From Amphirosellinia nigrospora (Eukaryota; Ascomycota; Sordariomycetes; Xylariales; Xylariaceae), in the NCBI GenBank assembly GCA_004123355.1, contig SCHM01000002.1, forward strand, positions 8,529,569-8,593,568: 64,000 nucleotides of DNA, read 5' to 3'. Positions 8,427 through 56,208 of this stretch are shown piece after piece. The position numbers were made by a program, and so were the translations under genes. The notes under the pieces were generated by a model. The model ran no database searches and was not told where the DNA came from. It saw nothing but the letters and a program-made list of their open reading frames with translations. Positions within the stretch are counted from its first letter, which is position 1. Each line of letters opens with the position of its first letter.

Positions 8427-10872
8427 GGATCCAATTTTTTCAAGATGACTGGTTCATGCAAAGCAAATGTCCCATCTGGGATTAACTCCTGACAAATATT
8501 TGCTATCTGTCTACGCATGAGGATGAGCTTACCGGATTTATGTTTAATTTTTGGCGCGATTTTCACCAGTTACAAACGCGAAGAAGAAGAAGAAGAAGAA
8601 GAAGAAGAAGCTAATGCTGTATTCTGGTTACCCGGGGCACGCGGAAGCAACACGAACTCTTTTTGGAGATATTTCTCAACTGCCCTCGTCCCTTTTCCTA
8701 TAACAGACTGTACATTTTTGGTGGCACCTCACGTCTCTGTGTCCTTGTATATGAGAAATGAGTGGAAGGAATGAGTTTGATGACGATGTTGGAAAAGTGA
8801 TGGGTGTTTCTTGTTCTGCTATAATTCATGTTTTAACCTGTCATGTTCTTTTAAATACGTCTAGCGTTCTTTCTGTGTTTGTTAGCCTTCTTTCACGTCG
8901 CCATGGCTGGGCCAGGCTGCGTGGCGATACCCTGTGCTTTGAAGCCGAGTTCTTCTTCCCATGGTCATGGCATAAGAGTTGGACCGATAGATGGACCTGT
9001 ACAGCGATGAAGCTCGCGCTTCCGATCGCATTGGAAATCATTTCTTTCACCCGAGGGCTGACCCGTCGGTAATGTTGCATGGGCTGGGATGGGGATGGCC
9101 GTGTCGCCAGACTCCCAGCCAAAGCATGGGTATCGTGTCATGATGGGCACCTGGTTTGGGTTTGTCGGTATTAAGCGCCGAGGTGGTGCAGGAATGACGT
9201 TTCATGTGTGGCAAGGCAGTATCAATGATGAGACGAACAAAGACCGCCTGGGGCTAGGCACTGTTGGGCGGAATGGTGCATACAATTGGGGAGGGTCTCA
9301 TATTATCGCGAAATGGACACTATTGGCTAGTTTGGCTTGTTCTGTCATCCACTTATGTATAGTATCTGTAGCGGCTATCTATACAACAAGCTACAACAGT
9401 CTAATCTACTGCTCCTATTTCTCCCGCCGTCTATTCTTCTGAAGTTTATGCTATAACGTAGTCTGGTATAATTGGTAAGGTAGCATTGAAGAACCACACA
9501 CACTGGGGGAGCTTGACGCAAGCCAGTGGGACACTCTATTCCGAGTAGGTTGATAAATGATGCCATCAGCTAAAAGGATGTCTGCGAAGTGGTGGTTCAC
9601 CTATCTGGGTGTTTTTGCTACCCAGGTACTTCGGCTTTGCCTACCAAACGCCGTGGGGTAAGTTCATATTTCGAAGGGCGCCAGGTGATCTGAAACCATT
9701 TAAAGTGTCATCCCCTAATGTATGGAAATCATTATACTAACATCGCTACAAGCGGCAACCCACACATTAACACTTAGTTTGGGTCTCACGGCTGAAGTTG
9801 CCTATCATCCTACCTAGTGCAATCAATTGACGACGACGATGTAGATATTGGGGATGGAGGGGGTGGTTGGCTAGGCGGATCGGCGGGCGCATGAACTGCT
9901 GAAAAATGATCAATACATGTGATTGGCAGCCATCACGCATTGTTCTTTTCTGAGTTTAAGGATGCAATCTGTAAACTGAATTTGTGGCATCTTGTGATTT
10001 GCCTGCTGGTTGATTATTGAAAAAGGTCCAGGCGGCAGGGGGCCAGGGACAAGCGAACGAATGGTGGCGAGCTTGGGTGATGATTTTTTTGTTGGTAAGG
10101 CTATAGCATTGCTTGGGTAAGGTTTGGCGTATACTATTTATTATATTATGGAGGAGCTGAGGGTTTATAGTGCGCCTAACTGGGTAAGTAGGACGATGTG
10201 TCGGAAGGGACGGGAGTGATTGAAGTCGTCTTTCTTAGGTACCTACCTCTCTATAGGCTACATCGCAGTGCACTGCAGTATCGGTCCCAGCCAGATGGCG
10301 AGACGCTGTGTGTAAATGCCCCACCTAGAATTAGTGCCTAAAATTTCCCTTAGCGGCTGTTGCCCGGCCAGTGCTGACTTGGGACGATTTGTTGACTATA
10401 CGACGTCACTTGCCCTAAGTTGTGGGCTCATACAGCTGTTGCCCAACCACCTTGCATCTGATAAGCCCAATCAGCACAGCCCCCCACCAACTTAACCACT
10501 TGCGTGTATTCATTGTTCATAGAGACCGCCGGGCAACGAAAACTACCGTGTCTTGTTTGTCTTCATTCTGCTTCACTCCCACGTTACATGACATTCCCTC
10601 CCAATCTCACACATCTACGAATCATCACAATACCCTCATATTTGGTCTAAGATTCGTGTTGGAGCTGAAATTATCGTACCGCGGAGCTGATCGGAGAACC
10701 TCATCACTGACTTGGCTGGGTTTTCCAGCGGAAACCCAACCTCCTACCAAGTCCCTAGAGAAGAAGCAGAAGAACACAAACAGATGAATAATCGTCACGA
10801 TAATTGAATATCACATTACTACAGCACAATCTAACACACCTCACCAGTGCCAAAACCCCGCCATCTCCCACA
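8427..10872. other. Intergenic; 3' flank then promoter of the membrane-protein gene
   Basis: It holds an (AAG)10 microsatellite at 8,581-8,610 and several short frames (8517-8774, 8758-9072, 9089-9442) without motifs or splice signals. The last few hundred bases (10,430-10,870) are C/T/A-rich and look like a promoter and leader for the gene at 10,873. I see nothing else. Confidence 0.45.
8581..8610 (+). repeat. (AAG)10 microsatellite
   Basis: Ten perfect AAG units lie about 150 bp after the stop codon of the upstream gene, so probably in or near its 3' untranslated region. Confidence 0.95.
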
Positions 10873-12327
10873 ATGGCACCACTCCTTCCAACACTAGCGG
10901 CCCGTGCTCGCAGCATTCTCTCCTCAGCTGCAAACACGCCATCGCAAGCCGTAGAAACGGCCTCGGGTCACCTATCCCGACTGGGGCCTCTGGCCGCCCG
11001 CGCCATACTGCTCGCCCGAGACGACGACAACAAGGACAACGGCCCACAGCTGGACCCATCCGTCGGCGTAACGAACCCGCACGACATCAACAACACCTTC
11101 ATCTTCATTCTATTCGGGCTGATCGGCGTGGCCTTTGTCGTCACGGGTATCTGGTTCTTCTTCTGGGCCAAGAACGGCGGCTTCTACTTCAAGGAGGATG
11201 ACTGGGACGACTACAAGTCGACGGTGCTGCGCCGCAAGGGGCCCGGCACCATCTTGTCCAACGCCACGAAGAGCACGAACCTGGGCGGCGGCTCCGTGTA
11301 CAAGGACGTCGACGACGGCGCCACCGAGTACACGGGGGGCCTGACGCAGATGTCGGGCGACACGGGCGACACCATGAGCACGCTGACGGGCATCACGGCG
11401 GCATCGGACATCGCGGGCCGCGAGCGGCGGCGCCGTGCGCGCGAGAGAAGAAGGAGCGCGAGCACGAGAAGAAGCGCGACCGCAAGAATAGGAAGAGCCG
11501 CCGCAAGGTGGGCGAGGACGGCGTGCTGGTCGACGAGGACGCCGAGGCCGACGCGAAGAAGAACCTGCGGGCCTACCGCTCCGAGCGCCCCCCGCGTCGG
11601 CGGCCTGAACAAGGAGGCCGAGGGCTCCGAGTGGGAGGGCTCCACCAACCCCGAGATGTCGACCATCTCGGGCGCCGGCAGCGAGCTGCTGATAAACCGC
11701 CAGAGCACCCCACGGCGACCCCGACCAAGGAGAAGGAGAAGGAGAAGCGCAAGAGCCGTGCCGAGTACTACGACACGGCCACCGAGATGTCCTACGATAC
11801 CAGCACCTCGCAGACGCAGAGCACGGCGCCGCCCCCTACCACGACGACGACGAAGAAATCGGGCGGCATCCGCAAGGTGTACAGCACGGCGGACCGCACC
11901 AACTCACGCGAGAACGAGCGTCTGCGCGCCGAGGCGAGACGCCTGGCAGAGAAGAGCCGCACCGCGGGCGCGGGCGCGGGTTCGTCCTCGCGGCGGGACT
12001 TCAGCTACCAGCGCGCGGACCTGCGGGCCCCGGCAGCGCCATCACCGAGGAGTCGGGGGAGACGGGATCCCTGATGGGCGCGAGCCGCGGACGCCTCCTC
12101 CTACCGTCCACGGCCGAGGAGAGCAGCGACATCGCCGACGGCAGCGATCTCGGCACCAAGTCGTACCGGCACTACATCCCCGGCATCTCCTCCTCCTCTG
12201 CCTCCGGTAGCGGCGCGGGAGTGCGGTCGGTAGCTCGGTTGCTGGGTCCGACCACACCGAGGATCGGCGTGAGAGACGCAAGAGGCGCGATGCGGAGCGG
12301 GCGGCACGGGCGACCAGACGGGAATAA
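10873..12327 (+). CDS. Single-pass membrane protein with basic cytoplasmic tail (about 485 aa), frame-broken
   Basis: The start is the ATG of MAPLLPTLAARARS. The N-terminal part up to about residue 70 ends in an acidic patch (ARDDDNKDN) and NPHDINN. One strong hydrophobic helix follows (TFIFILFGLIGVAFVVTGIW, about residues 76-95) and then FFFWAKNGGFYFKEDDWDDY. The tail is long, Thr/Ser-rich, then Lys/Arg/Glu-rich. The reading frame must be changed at about 11,443, 11,588-11,593 (C6), 11,708-11,711 (CCCC), 12,025-12,031 and 12,217-12,219 (GGG). The shifts sum to a multiple of three and lead to a basic end (RRERRKRRDAERAARATRRE) and TAA at 12,325. The plus strand is very GC-rich here, unlike its flanks. 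I infer a plasma- or endomembrane protein with its tail in the cytosol; the family function is unknown to me. Confidence 0.72.
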
Positions 12328-14760: not shown

Positions 14761-17454
14761 GTGTGTATACTGGGAGTAGGGACTTGGCTGTCAGTATGCG
14801 TGGTGTAGCATATGGGTCGAAATGTTGTTATTAAGGGGTTATACTCAAATGGTTAGCTGGCATCCTGCTCTGAATATGCGACATTTCGATTGTGGTCATA
14901 ACTGGACGAGTTAACGTCAAGACCACCAATGCCTGTCGTCAGTTGGTCTATAGCCTCAGTGCGAGGGTACGTGCTGGTGGTCGTTCGTGGTAGTCACGCC
15001 GTTGTCCCACCTAACTTCAACATGACCTTTTGATTTAAATCTTAGTATGAGCAAATGGAAATCTAGTGGGAACGCCAGGCGTTTAGGACACACCTTGCCA
15101 GTCTAATCGGTCGCAAAAGTACCTCCCTTCGTTTTGGTCCCATTTCCATTCACTCCATGGGCCCCACGACTGGGGATGGGAATTCTTTGCTGGATGCTTT
15201 TTTCCATGCATTGTACCATTTTGTAGCCCCGCCCTATCATTGGAATAATAGTAAACGCGGGAAAGGCGCAGTTCGTAGCACGAGTAGTATCGGCTCCACG
15301 AATTCGTGGCGATTAGCCGATGATGCGTCTTCGCCTTAAATGCGCGATGCGGCTCTTCAGCTGCAGGCTTTACCCGACCTCGGGTTCGCGGGTCAAGTAG
15401 TAGTATCGAGCTCAGTCGGCGAAGATGTGGGAGTTAGTGCTGCTGTGCGCTACGCTATGCTGTTGGTCAATCCAGATGCACTTTGTGCCTTGTGGTTGTG
15501 GCCGGGGAGACGACCGGGCCTCCGAGGGTAAAATAAGATGTAGTTCTCAACCAAGACCTTCGAGACAGAATCTAAACTCACTAAAGGGCATGTGAGAATG
15601 AATAGCGATGCGGGCAGGGATTGGCTTGTGCAGGAGTCTCAAAGGGGCAACTCGAGGGCCCCGCTGGGTTAGATAGACTAGATGGAAAAACTGCATACTC
15701 CTCGGAACATTGGAGGCTAGATAAGTTAGTCCAAGTACACGACGGGTGCTGGTTTATTCAGCGCCTCCTAGCTGCATCTCCGCCGGCGAAAAGTGTGTGC
15801 CAGATGGACTGGCGCTCTGCGCTGGCTATGTTATTCCCAGTCGAACACTTCCACCCATAAGTTCCTTGGAAAGGCTATTTATGGTGTCTTAGAAAAATTA
15901 GGAATTTCCCAAAAAACGTGTTCGAGTAGGACAACACACGACGACCCACAGACCACAGACGGTTGAGGACAAGGCCAGAACAAGGGTCCTGTGCGAGCCG
16001 AGGGAAGTGCTTACATCACTGCCTGTCGAACGGCTGTAGTGCCTGGTTGCAACAGTGTCTGTCGAAGAACAAGCACGCCAATACAGGGTAGCCAGTAGCG
16101 GAAGGCGGGAGGCGGACCATGGTAGCACAGCTTGATCTTGGCGCGGTGCAGCCCACGGCCTGCACGAGGGGGGTGTGAAGGGTGTGAAGGGTGTGAAGCG
16201 GGTGTGTGGGCCACCAGAAAGCAATGCTCCCCAGTGTTTCCCTATAACAGATGAGGCTCTGTCACGGGTATACGTATACGTATCCCTAACCTGGCAGCCA
16301 TGTGCAGCCATTGCCATTTGCCATTGCCATTTCTGCGTCATGTACGTGTCGTCGATGCATCTGGAGCCCAACGTCGTCTTTCCAATAGAAGCTCGCAATG
16401 CTTGCTGGCTGACACTGGTGGCCGGGGCTAGGGTTGAGTTGGATGAGTCCCGATGCGGGAGGGATGCTCCAAGCTTAGCTTCACTTCGGCGGGTCGTGAA
16501 TGATCAGTTGGCGGGAGCATGATTGGTGATGCATAATATCATCATCTGGATTTAGCTGTTGCAACAACATGGAAAAAGAACAGAAAACCGTCTGTTACGT
16601 ATTGGCCCGTAAGACACACTTAGGTAGAAGAGCAGGTACCTTAGTAGGTGCGGTAGGTACCCACCGCTCTTAGTTAGTACAGTCAGTCGGCGCTGGAGTG
16701 GCCGTATTAATAATAGAACTACGTACTACTGGCAAGTAGAAATCAACGACATGTGGGAAGAAGGAGCTAGAGCAAGACTTCTCTCCTTCTCTCTTTCCCT
16801 CCCAGGCTGATTTAGCTGGTTGTGTACATACTTACCTTACCTACTACCTACACGATACACACACACATACATACATACCTCACCTGCGCCCTCCCAAAAC
16901 CGCCGCCTGCATCAGCTTGTCTTTTGACCGATCACCTTACCTCGCTCACTGTCTGTGCTACGCAGCGCCGGCATCGTGCTCGAAATCCCATTCCCTTCTG
17001 TCCCCACCACCTGTCCAAAACACGATCCACCATTTCGGAACTCGCTATCTATCTTTAACTCACTTACGTACTTTACCTATCCTGTCTAGTCTAGCGCGAT
17101 CCGGTATCGCCAACCAAGGAACGGCCCGAGAACCGCAAAATCCACTATCTACCTAGGTATACTTATTACTATTTACTTGTACCAAGCCACAGTCGCTGGT
17201 CCGGCATCATCAATTTTATTTCAGAAACAGAAAGTCAAACGAATAAACGATCAAAAACAAACAAACAAACAAAACAAACACAAGAGAGAGAGTAGCCAAA
17301 GCAATAAAATGTATGATGAGATCCAGCAGTGAGCGCGTTGGCATGTCCATCCAGCGTTATCGCCCGCCAGTAGTAGGTACTTAGCCTTCACGATGAACCA
17401 TAATGCACGTCCAACGAGAGTCCAGCCGAGTCTATCTACCTCTCTTAGACCGTC
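14761..17454. other. Intergenic between divergent genes
   Basis: Promoter-type sequence probably lies at both ends. It includes a tandem GGGTGTGAAG repeat (16,171-16,200), CACACATACATAC and AAACAAAC runs close to the gene at 17,455, and short frames (15157-15339, 15340-15531, 15621-15860, 16175-16522) with no recognisable domain. I see no gene I can support. Confidence 0.45.
16171..16200 (+). repeat. Tandem repeat of GGGTGTGAAG (three units)
   Basis: Three near-perfect 10-bp units stand side by side, the third varying at its end (aagcg). No gene overlaps with support. Confidence 0.85.
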
Positions 17455-26417: not shown

Positions 26418-28598
26418 ATGTCCTTCACACGAGGTGGTGGTCGCGGTGCGCCCGCGGCGGTGGTCGTGGTGGTTTCGGCGGTGGTTTCGGTGGTGGACGC
26501 GGTAGAGGCGGCGGCGATCGCGGTGGCAGAGGTGGTGGCCGTGGAGGTTTCGGCGGCCGTGGTGGTGGCGGCGGTTTCGGAGGCGATCGAGGTCGAGGCG
26601 GCGCTCGCGGTTTGTCATGCCTCGGACCTCGCTGAGCCAATTGATGTTCTAACGCGGGCGATTAGGTCGTGGAGCTCCCCGAGGTGGTGGCCGTGGTGGT
26701 CGCGGAGGTGGCAAGCCTGGTGGTGCTGGAGCCAAGGTCGTGGTAGAACCGGTATGTGCTTGCTTCCCTTCCCGCTGACGCTACAAAGCTGGCAACAGAA
26801 CCGGCGACTAACGATACCGACATAGCATCGTCAGTAAGTGAATGGCAATGCTTGCCTCTCGGCAAAATATGGGTACTAACTTGACCATCAAGCGCTGGTA
26901 TCTTCGTATCTCGCGGTAAGCAACCTGGCGGCGACAAGGTCTGTGGCTAGAGCTAGACACAAGACTGATACCGTCCCTACGTGCTCAAGAGACTGGTTAC
27001 TAACTCTACTCTATAGGCAAGGAAGATCGTAAGTATCCTTCAGTCTTAAGCCCCCTCTTCAACAGGTTAAATAAGAGGGCATATTCAACAACGAGCTCCC
27101 TACCTTATATACCGCCAGACATAGTCGGATCCTGTTTGGTTTCCTCTGGAGATCTGCTCTAACTCTCGACTTACTAGATCTTCTCACACGCTCGGTTGCA
27201 CCTGGTGTTGAAGTGGGTAAGTGAACTCTTGAGTACCTTTCTGTACTGCAGGTAGTATGTTTGATCGTCGCTAACCAATTTCCAGTAAGCAGTCCCCGTC
27301 CCGAGGTCAAGCAAGATTGAAGCGCCCCACCCTCGATAGTGTCTGGCCACGATCCATGATATTCGGAATCGTCTATTAACATGACGGCGTGAAAAGTACG
27401 GCGAGAAGCGAATTACAGTCGACGAAGCAACTAAAGACGCCGAAGGTGCCTCCGTGACCACCAAGGTTGAATACAGAATTTGGGTACGCATTTGAAGTTC
27501 TTTTACGCTTTTGGCAGATCTAGCTTAGTACTATGAGATACTCGAGCCTCTGCTAGGACATTTATCTTGTTGTATGACAAGGCTAATTCATATTAGAACC
27601 CCTTCAGGTCGAAACTTGCTGCTGCCGTAATTGGCGGTATTGATAACATCTTTATTGCCCCCGGAAAGAAAGTCTTGTATCTGGGGGCCGCCTCGGGTAC
27701 ATCCGTATCCCACGGTACGTTATGCTATGGAAGGGCGATGCGGCGATATCAGGTCAATGCTGTTACTAACCGCCAATTGATTAGTCGCCGATATAGTAGG
27801 ACCGACAGGCAACGTTTACGCAGTCGAGTTCAGTCACCGATCTGGACGTGACCTTGTAAGTTATATACGAGACTCTGGATGGTTGCGCTCTCTAATTTTT
27901 TTACTAGACCACAATGGCCCAGCAGAGGACTAATGTGATACCGAGTACGATATGCCAAATCTCTCGTTTCCCGTTCTCATGGTTGCCGAGTCTACTACTA
28001 CCCCTAAACACGTGAAGATTACTATATATAACTATGACTAACCGCCAGCTCAACAGTTGTTGAAGACGCACGTCATCCTCTAAAATACCGCATGCTAGTC
28101 CCTATGGTAGACGCCATTTTCCTCGTAAGTTAACCATTAACGTTTGGGTGTAAGAGATAAGTGCTTCTCTAACTCTGTCTATAGGATGTTGCCCAACCTG
28201 ATCAAGCCCGTATCGCTTTATTGAATGCAGGATTATTCTTAAAGATCGGTGGGGGTATCGTCATCTCCATTAAGGCCAACTGTATAGACAGCACAGCTGC
28301 GCCAGAGGCAGTATTCGCGGCTGAGGTGCAGAAGCTGCGACAAGGAGGTCTTAAGCCACTCGAACAACTGTAAGTTCTCCGACTCTTGCAATAAGTAACC
28401 GCTGAAACTAACAATTCGACTAATAGGACTTTGGGTACGTACATACATGCTTGTAGTGAAACGAACGAGCAAAACTAACGTACTTTCCAGAACCATACGA
28501 GCGTGATCATGCTGTCGGTCAGTATTGCATTATATTTCCCAGTTAACAAACCAAGCTGACTTGATATAGTTATTGGCAGGTATGAGGGCCCGAAATAG
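26418..28598 (+). CDS. nop1: Fibrillarin, box C/D snoRNA 2'-O-methyltransferase, 15 exons
   Basis: The nucleolar methyltransferase of box C/D snoRNPs, which modifies rRNA using S-adenosylmethionine. Exons: 26418-26609, 26666-26751, 26826-26833, 26893-26915, 27017-27028, 27178-27215, 27397-27483, 27597-27714, 27785-27855, 27908-27944, 28057-28124, 28185-28369, 28427-28434, 28491-28517, 28570-28598. They give about 329 aa: [12 protein letters not shown], a Gly/Arg-rich (GAR) domain, [30 protein letters not shown], the SAM-binding [68 protein letters not shown] and a final [18 protein letters not shown]. One base is missing after GCGCCC (26,451-26,453); adding it makes the total divisible by three. 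The intron between exons 6 and 7 fits a stwintron. The methyltransferase core looks complete, so I consider the gene functional. Confidence 0.94.
27216..27396 (+). other. [D1] stwintron (nested intron) in nop1
   Basis: G27216 is the first base of the outer donor. It is followed by a complete 69-nt internal intron, 27,217-27,285 (donor GTAAGT, branch CTAAC, acceptor CCAG). After that comes TAAGCA, so that removing the internal intron creates an outer donor GTAAGC. The outer 112-nt intron ends at AAAAG (27,396) with a TATTAAC branch. Only this two-step removal keeps the Val of the conserved VYGEKR motif with canonical donors. Confidence 0.8.
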
Positions 28599-29085
28599 GC
28601 ACTTTAAGCGTAATACTGTCTAGAATGTATGATGGTCCTACCTCACATTTAGGTGGGTTTTCATCAGGCAACGGCGATCGGCGTTATGGAATGACTTAGG
28701 CTATGATCTTATCATGTTTTCTCATCTGTGTCCGATACCACTCAGGCTCGGTCTGTCCCCACGCAATACAATGATGTTCTCAAAAGTGCATATTATGCTT
28801 AGTCTCACGATAGTTCCTAAACTCTTGCAATCGGTAGAAGCTCAACGAGCGTGCGACTTCTCTGTATCTTGAAACCCGGCAAAGTTGACGAGATGAACCC
28901 CCACATAAGCTTCCTCTATCTCTTGCCTCTGCTATTGACCTGGAAGTGCGGGTATTCTGAGAACCCAGCCCGCTCTCCATCCCCAAGCATAAGTCCTGAA
29001 GTCTACCGACCTCGCCTCTGTGCCCGTTTGATGCGCTAGGATACTCGAAGTCATTTACTTTGAACGGCATCTCATGTGATTGCCA
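28599..29085. other. Intergenic between convergent genes
   Basis: The 3' flanks of nop1 (plus) and the Asn-rich gene (minus) meet here. I see no additional feature; the frames on both strands (28780-29070 and 28851-29039) lack motifs. Confidence 0.5.
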
Positions 29086-53600: not shown

Positions 53601-53869
53601 AAAAGGCCTCGGATCACTGAACCTTTTAAGATGACCAAACTATATAGATAATTGTTTACACATCAAGACATTAGATGCAAGCCGATATTCAAATTTCTTG
53701 CTTGCCTCGACAAAATCTCAACCGGAAAGAAACCAATGCATTATACCTACCTAGACGAATTTTTTTAATTAGATAGTAACTCAAAGACAATGCGTTCCTG
53801 GCATACCTCCTAGTTAGACTCATGCCAATGCTCGCCTGTCTAGCCCATATGGTCTTGCTGCTGTAGGAC

Positions 53870-56208
53870 CTACGGTAGTTCAAGAACTTCGGTGTCATGT
53901 TCCAATGCCAGGCTTTCTGCCTCAGAGCTGGATTTGTTATCGATGTTCCCCGTCTCTGCATTTTCGACAGTAATCTCGAGATCGAACGGTCGCGGTCTTT
54001 CCAAATTGAATAACTCAATAGGCGGGGCGCTCGGCGCTCTCTGCTTCTCCTCATCGTCGACAAGAATGACCACCCACACGCCCACGGCACCATTGACGCC
54101 GAGCAGCGGGTCGCGTGTACCCAACGGTTTCGGCCCGGGACGGGACTCGCACTGGAACTTGAGCTAGCGCGCCGCCCGGAAGACACCGTGGGACGCGCGA
54201 GCCATCGCACCTTGGTCGTGATGCTGTGACTATCTTTGAAGGCTTGTGAGATCGCGGCCCGCGTACTCTGTGGCCCGCCGATGCGCGACATGAACGGGGA
54301 TTGTAAGATTCCAGGGACGCGCAGTGAAGGGCTGGCGAACAGGATCCGCATGTCGGGAGATGGGCGTACGAGTAAGTAATGGTCGAGAATGCCTCGGAAG
54401 CGGGTGATAAGTGATGAGCTAGAAAGGGGAGTCAACGCCGACGACGACATGGAATTGTCCATCGGCGCTTCTGTCTCTATGGTTACCGCTTCATCTTTGG
54501 GGAGGGATTGGAGTTTGCTATTGTTGTTGTTCGTGCTTGAGCTCGAGCCGGCACTGTTCGGCTTGTCGGCGTGCGTCTCGCCTGATGCCTGGACGATTTT
54601 CAGCTCGCTGAGGGTGAACATTTCGGCGAGACTGGCGAGAACGTCTCTACTCGCGCGTGGTTCTTTGGTATCTTTCGGCTCGTTGTCAGCGGGTTCGTCC
54701 GACTGATTCTGTTTCTGTGCCACGAGTTCTCCTAAAGATGTGAGCCCGGCACATTCCTTGAGGAGCCCCGAGACATCGACCTGAGCTCCTAAAAAGTAAC
54801 GGATGTTACCGCGGTTATCGTATAGAGGCGTGATCATGAGTAAGTTCATGAAAACGGAACCATCCCGTCTGTAATTTAGCAGAGGCTCGCAGTGTTCTTT
54901 ACCGACAACGAGCATCTCTCTTAGCCTGTGAACACTGTGTTGATTGGTCCTGGGGCCCTGAAGAAAGCGGCAGTTGCGCCCCAGGGCAAACCTCCGCCCA
55001 TACTGGGTAGCTCTATGAAATTCTGATCTTATGTGTTAGTGCGTCGGCTCTATATATCGGCGGTGGTAACAATACCTTCACTAGCGAATACTATCGGGTT
55101 ATCGTCCCTGGAAGGGTCCGTTAAGCAGAAAACCTCGGCCAGCCCCTCAGATAGGTCACGTAAGTTGGGTGGTAGAGTGTTCGTAATTCGCTGTTTGATC
55201 GTTAGGCTCACGATCCGAGTCCACACATGAGTGACATAAGCTGGCAGCTCTTCTTGTGCTAGCACCCCAAAAGCCTCGTTAGCTCTGCCCACTAGCGACT
55301 TGCTGATGGCCTCGATAAGAGGAAGTTCGCTCGACGGAGTTCTGTTGACACGAGCAAGCTCTTCTATGATGGCATTGGCATAGCCGATCGCTTTTGATGC
55401 TTTTACCAAATTCAGGTAGTAGTTCAAGAGAGGCACTGATTCTGGTTTTAGGGCGTAGAGAAAGTCCGTAAACTTCTGCATGTGCTTTGGGTCCTCGAAG
55501 ATGATTCTGAGGTGCTCGGCAGATAAGAGCAACTCTGACTTCACTTCTACAGAGTATTGAGGCTCAGTCACTTCCGGTGGAGCGACTAAATCAAAGGACG
55601 CTGGGTCGATCTCTTCCGCAATGAGTGGCTTAAGCCCGTCATGATCTGCCAGGTTAACACTTTGGAGGGCTGGCAGCTGACCCCCGGTGTTGTAGCGATG
55701 GAAGAAGTCGAGTTGGCTGGTGACTGTGTTGACCGGGTCGGATGGCTTTTGGGCGATGGCGATGATACAGTCTCATCGTGTGTGCTGACGAAACCTGCCT
55801 GACAAGCCACCCACTGAGCTGCCGCTGAAGAAGCCTCGGCTTGTTTTCGCGAACATCTATGTCTGATCAATACTATGATGCATCATTCAGTTGGTGTTAT
55901 TCTACTCATGCCACGTACCTTGCCTGCTCGTTACCCTCGATCAAAGGGGGTTTGGGAAAGCTGGCTGCTTTCAATAACGCATTGACCGTATGAGTAGGTA
56001 GGGATACTAGTATCTCAGGCCTTTCTCTGTCATCTTCGTCCGATGATACCTTAGCAGGCTTAATGGACAGGTCAAGCCTATCCGATCTACTTTGGGCATC
56101 GGAATGTCGTCTCTGCGGCGGTTGAAGTAGCCTCGGTCCCTGTGATATTGCATTGGCTATGTCGTTATTACTAGCCACTGATATTCGTGAGCGATCTGCT
56201 TCTGTCAT
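53870..56208 (-). CDS. RGS-LOV blue-light receptor (BcLOV4-like, about 741 aa)
   Basis: Three exons: 55,919-56,208, 55,076-55,856 and 53,870-55,022, with introns of 62 and 53 nt. Two single bases appear lost in runs of three (plus-strand GGG at 55,735-55,737 and 54,108-54,110); with both restored the sum is divisible by three. Order: disordered N-terminus; RGS domain (about residues 200-330, with LRIIFEDPKHMQKFTDFLYA and LNYYLNLVKASKAIGYANAI); LOV domain (about 340-450) with EEFHRATQYG, the flavin-adduct motif GRNCRFLQGP (Cys about 375), LNYRRDGSVFMNLLMITPLYDN and IRYFLGAQVDVSGL; a Ser/Asn-rich linker; and a C-terminal region with RFRGILDHYLLVRPSPDMRI. This is the arrangement of Botrytis BcLOV4, in which blue light drives binding to the inner plasma membrane. 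The photoactive Cys is intact, so light sensing is expected; any G-protein action is inferred from the RGS fold. Confidence 0.93.

Follow-up and report, generated by a model that had tools for sequence, protein, structure and literature searches.

This analysis concerns the splicing, between exons 6 and 7, of the gene of this fungus for fibrillarin (Nop1), a nucleolar enzyme. The frames of both exons are fixed by homology, and the 181 nt between them contain a canonical donor whose direct joining to the final acceptor breaks the frame. We consider it very likely, judging from motifs, frame and homologues, that positions 27216-27396 are a [D1,2] spliceosomal twin intron (stwintron) within the fibrillarin gene. 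The coordinates of all features (Table 1) refer to the window, which denotes the entire stretch of 64,000 nucleotides that was analysed.

Table 1. Features of the fibrillarin gene and of the candidate twin intron, in positions of the window
Feature	Positions	Strand	Basis
Fibrillarin (Nop1) gene, start to stop	26418..28599	+	Exon-by-exon model; 15 exons and 14 intron positions, the candidate twin intron taken as one
Exon 6, ends APG VEV, phase 0	27178..27215	+	Gene model, alignment
Whole putative [D1,2] stwintron, 181 nt, phase 0	27216..27396	+	Model A match, frame analysis, shuffle controls
G of the putative external donor	27216	+	Sequence; extra G indicated in X. longipes by the inserted peptide, less strongly in X. 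grammica
Putative internal U2 intron, 69 nt: GTAAGT, branch site GCTAAC (27270-27275), 7-nt spacer, CAG (27283-27285)	27217..27285	+	Sequence, model A
Remainder of the putative external intron: G/TAAGC, branch site ATTAAC (27375-27380), 13-nt spacer, AAG (27394-27396)	27286..27396	+	Sequence, model A
Exon 7, begins YGEKRI (TAC GGC), phase 0	27397..27483	+	Gene model, alignment

The fibrillarin gene and its reading frame

The predicted product belongs to the Pfam family PF01269 (336.2 bits), and its best matches in the PDB are fibrillarin/Nop1 chains. Residues 75-317 of the query are 99% identical to the fibrillarin of Xylaria scruposa (P0001); the nearest fibrillarins are those of Xylaria, hence of the family Xylariaceae and not of the Hypoxylaceae. 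A search of the 48.1-Mb assembly (11 contigs) found one fibrillarin locus. Each of the 14 donors of the gene model has a G at +5. The gene also contains three microexons of 8, 12 and 8 nt (26826-26833, 27017-27028 and 28427-28434), at which the public models of some relatives (P0042, P0043) seem to be wrong as well.

Several frames in the window are interrupted without an intron. Exon 1 of the fibrillarin gene (26418-26460) has one frame break at a short run of C, where the X. scruposa sequence is continuous, and which is probably an assembly error. A LOV/PAS-type gene on the reverse strand (53849-56208) changes frame near 55682-55688 and 54109-54139 relative to three Xylaria homologues. A membrane-protein-like open frame (10804-12210, forward strand) shows, by eye, several apparent frame switches, which suggests one-base errors. 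The break in exon 1 is also what could be expected if the locus were a decayed copy in which the frame break at exon 6 is itself a product of decay. We regard such a pseudogene as extremely improbable, as no other fibrillarin locus was found in the genome, the rest of its frame is intact at the identity to X. scruposa given above, and the fibrillarin gene is essential in yeast.

Exon 6 ends with GAA GTG at 27215. If a single intron is removed from the donor GTAAGT at 27217 to 27396, a surplus G stays behind and the frame runs into a stop at codon 13 after the Val codon; a preliminary description of the locus had correctly stated that this donor breaks the frame. We scanned single introns of the types GT-AG and GC-AG whose donor lies within 27190-27222 and whose acceptor lies no further than 27419. 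Fifteen solutions keep the frame without a stop, every one of them loses residues, and none of the 15 retains the length of the family. The least costly solution, 27213-27396 with the donor GTGGGT, loses only Val, whereas the other 14 remove more. The loss of Val that the preliminary description ascribed to this donor is correct. Excision of 27216-27396, by contrast, yields APGVEV/YGEKR, the length of the family, and the earlier statement that PGVEVYGEKR fits the family holds: this product scores the 336.2 Pfam bits given above, and Val stands directly before Y(G/N)EKR in 107 of the 120 homologues listed.

A single intron with the donor GTGGGT, resulting in a protein without Val (PGVE-YGEKR), thus keeps the frame; the donor is among the 24 in a published list (the part of PMC9024468 cited here), and four relatives are annotated in this way (P0007, P0013, P0029 and P0043). 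Nevertheless, it is very unlikely to be the true intron: the protein would lack a residue of 107 homologues at a cost of 9.3 Pfam bits (326.9), and the donor must compete with GTAAGT only 4 bases downstream.

Anatomy of the insert and chance controls

The insert has the organization of the [D1,2] class. The internal intron sits between G1 and U2 of the external donor (G27216 / 27217-27285 / TAAGC), the donor, branch site and acceptor of both constituents are within the published ranges, and removal of the whole insert results in continuous coding, while splicing at the distal sites adds one G. The external intron is 112 nt long when G27216 is counted in. The preliminary description had given the extent of the insert, the 69-nt inner intron, the rebuilt donor GTAAGC, the end at 27396 and a branch site for each of the two parts, all of which we recover in the sequence.

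We infer the order of splicing, its intermediate and the outcome at the distal sites from these elements. The spliceosome would first remove the internal intron 27217-27285, such that G27216 is joined to TAAGC and a new donor, GTAAGC, is formed; the external intron would then be removed up to 27396, and GTG (Val) would be joined to TAC (Tyr). For stwintrons of this class, the same succession (internal intron first, formation of the external donor, external intron next) is described in the cited part of PMC12403724. Direct use of the distal sites 27217 and 27396 would retain one G and lead to a premature stop, here after a 16-letter peptide, an outcome also reported for other [D1,2] stwintrons; if only the internal intron were removed, translation would stop after a 15-letter peptide. 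Messages misspliced in either way would presumably decay.

To assess the motifs we made use of the published five-motif search for [D1,2] stwintrons (PMC9024468, here model A), which matches exactly 27216-27396, end to end. Dinucleotide shuffles of the core with both ends fixed satisfy model A in 167 of 20000 cases and a stricter form in 2 of 20000. The stricter form was written after the site had been seen, and 167 of 20000 is hence the fairer figure for chance. In 204 kb of the genome, model A has 3 matches, all of them within the 64-kb window, compared to 0.6 on average in 20 shuffled sets, one of which also has 3. A second strict form matches once in the 204 kb (27216-27396) and in none of the 20 shuffled sets.

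We note that a match to model A alone is insufficient, since only 90 of 282 such matches in Hypoxylon are authentic according to the cited part of PMC9024468, and that the reading frame is a stronger argument than the motif. The same is evident from a false match in the fibrillarin gene itself: a second stwintron at 26751-26892 was considered and rejected, since 26826-26833, which lies within it, is an 8-nt exon that codes for part of the conserved HRH. The third match (14966-15119, forward strand) has no evident coding frame and is probably due to chance. As RNA, the 181 nt do not fold better than expected by chance (z of 0.05; 92 of 200 shuffles reach as good a fold), and a special fold was therefore dropped as a feature of the insert.

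Gene models of relatives at the same junction

Relatives are known here from protein models, among the 120 homologues listed. Alignment A1 consists of the protein of the window and 33 of these 120, chosen by hand. By name and similarity, 22 rows were grouped as Xylariaceae-type, including P0008, and a further 8 as Hypoxylaceae-type, according to their family; for Ustulina deusta and Nemania, the family was checked and is Xylariaceae. P0008 is based on a 1944-base contig that could equally be genomic and was dropped as transcript evidence for the V/Y junction. P0015, P0019 (Xylariaceae sp.) and P0037 (Camillea) are in neither group.

Val is missing before YGEKR in 13 of the 120 homologues listed, all of them gene models from Xylariaceae. 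Within alignment A1, a script counted a deviation at the junction of the putative stwintron in 12 of the 22 Xylariaceae-type rows. P0036, whose model begins within the external intron and which the script had not flagged, was added by hand, giving 13 of 22. All three ungrouped sequences retain Val, and the count becomes 13 of 24 with P0015 and P0019. At the other 12 junctions counted (intron 1, in the Gly-rich tail, was left out), 0 to 6 of the 22 rows deviate, and none of the 8 Hypoxylaceae-type rows deviates at any of the 13 junctions. The upper value of 6 stems from intron 8 (27715-27784), where 6 of the 22 models lack 13 residues, which would fit the use of a CAG acceptor located 39 nt further downstream; either the annotation is at fault or this acceptor is an alternative one.

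The deviations at the stwintron junction are of several kinds. Val is dropped in the four models named above, as is to be expected from a gene finder that must drop Val if GTAAGT breaks the frame. P0009 skips 8 residues, namely Val and YGEKRIS, and P0042 skips the whole stretch up to YGEKR. In six models residues are inserted (7, 7, 9, 24, 25 and 34), whereby the two inserts of 7 residues belong to X. longipes and X. hypoxylon. Five of the six inserts start with VS (P0021, P0028, P0031, P0035 and P0049), which can be explained by G/TA AGY reading Val-Ser once the internal intron is spliced.

The insert of X. longipes reads VSTPNPE and aligns end to end, with 5 of 7 residues identical and none of 500 shuffles as good, with VSSPRPE, which the window reads from G27216 and 27286 onward, just past the internal acceptor. 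In the insert of X. grammica, the last 9 residues can be aligned with the external intron (14 of 500 shuffles as good), a match that does not extend to the VS end; for this species there is a second model, P0002, with EV/YGEKR, as opposed to P0028. The insert of X. multiplex matches the 3' part of the external intron (20 of 500 shuffles), and no significant alignment to the window was obtained for P0021, P0031 and P0049 (299, 287 and 99 of 500 shuffles, respectively). The alignments indicate that a G, an acceptor and TAAGY are present in at least one, and probably in two, independent genomes, and the position of the stwintron is probably shared by several Xylariaceae.

The inserts also bear on whether the window contains two ordinary introns, 27217-27285 and 27306-27396, around a 20-nt exon (27286-27305) by which VSSPRPE would enter the protein. 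Such an arrangement would keep the frame in a gene that has other microexons, and would have the 7 residues of the inserts in X. longipes and X. hypoxylon. We nonetheless consider it highly improbable. The second donor (GTCAAG) would lack the G at +5 found in all donors read in the gene, insert lengths vary among relatives, no insert is present at this junction in X. scruposa, the closest relative, and the product scores 323.0 Pfam bits, a loss of 13.2. It is the sole two-intron reading that was tried.

Several observations speak against a stwintron. Errors in the gene models of these fungi also occur at other junctions, as seen at intron 8; the plain V/YGEKR junction of 9 of the 22 Xylariaceae-type models is also expected from a simple intron; a VVS start could also stem from read-through of a simple GTG/GTAAGY donor; and frames are broken elsewhere in the window. 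The last point is most pertinent to an assembly error, the serious alternative to a stwintron, by which the true sequence would have GG at 27215-27217 and one ordinary 180-nt intron with the donor GTAAGT. With the intron-free breaks described above (one in exon 1 of the fibrillarin gene, two in the LOV/PAS-type gene), a one-base error would not be exceptional here, and a simple GTG/GTAAGT intron would yield the same protein. However, a complete internal-intron signature would then be left to chance, at the frequencies of the core shuffles given above for model A and its stricter form. Moreover, the insert of X. longipes points to G and TAAGY in an independent genome, that of X. grammica doing so less strongly, and models of four other species that drop Val are hard to explain if GTAAGT keeps the frame. 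An assembly error is, overall, quite unlikely.

A stwintron thus remains the best explanation, and the proposal of the preliminary description is supported by the anatomy of the insert, the frame and the traces in the gene models of relatives, and is probably right. Should RNA confirm it, the gene would provide a stwintron in a highly conserved context, where the frame is known to the exact residue from homology, and at a position that, as the models suggest, outlived the split of several genera of Xylariaceae. The oddity of 13 public fibrillarin models from Xylariaceae at one and the same residue would be explained as well. Stwintrons could then be spotted from protein databases alone, by dropped residues or by variable inserts starting with Val-Ser at one junction. 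A more far-reaching proposal is that Xylaria, Nemania and Ustulina inherited the twin intron from a common ancestor and that selection has maintained it, the survival of fibrillarin mRNA being set by whether removal takes two steps or a one-step distal splice (with its G and the stop at the 13th codon) is used instead; we consider this unlikely.

Relation to known stwintrons

Nested introns of this type have been described in these fungi before, whereas for the fibrillarin site we found no report. Stwintrons are indeed established in Hypoxylaceae, as the preliminary description had said: more than 1500 of the [D1,2] type are reported in the cited part of PMC9024468. Among the papers searched, none mentions both stwintrons and fibrillarin; a listing of the gene for Hypoxylaceae in a supplement is possible. 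A word search of the main text of PMC9024468 and PMC12403724 for methyltransferase and Nop1 gave no occurrence.

As far as the cited parts of both papers allow, two groups of stwintrons can be compared. The first are the 81 uniquely occurring [D1,2] stwintrons described for Hypoxylon sp. CO27-5 (Fekete et al., PMC9024468). The fibrillarin insert shares with them the five motifs, their order, the donor split between G1 and T2, and an internal spacer of 7 nt, the commonest value there (found in 49 of the 81 unique stwintrons and in 34 of the 38 sisters). It likewise has no similar genomic copy that we could find, and its position is seemingly shared by relatives. It differs in that it occurs in Xylariaceae and has an external spacer of 13 nt instead of the usual 6.

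The second group are sequence-similar [D1,2] stwintrons, of which PMC12403724, in the part cited, describes 288 in 14 Xylariales, some with NTIRE-10. The insert is of the same type as the sister stwintrons of Xylariaceae and similar in length (181 nt versus 184-185 nt in near-identical clusters), and its external spacer of 13 nt is close to the almost invariable 14 nt. Unlike these sisters, it has neither an NTIRE nor a second copy that we found. When the 181 nt were searched against the genome, with very common words skipped, only their own locus was returned at E <= 0.01; the longest exact inverted repeat between the 24-nt ends of the insert is 4 nt, not counting G-U pairs; and the exact pattern of an NTIRE-10 pair, at the spacing tried, has no match in the genome. 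Given the lone self-match and the absence of such pairs, the idea of a sister copy was rejected.

Each constituent resembles an ordinary U2 intron of filamentous ascomycetes, with a canonical donor, branch site and acceptor, and the insert departs from such introns in that one-step removal from 27217 to 27396 breaks the frame. As no second copy, NTIRE-like repeat or exceptional fold was found, the putative fibrillarin stwintron looks like one of the older, uniquely occurring and positionally conserved stwintrons. Since its length and its 13-nt external spacer are near those of the Xylariaceae sisters, it may also be an old, worn sister stwintron.
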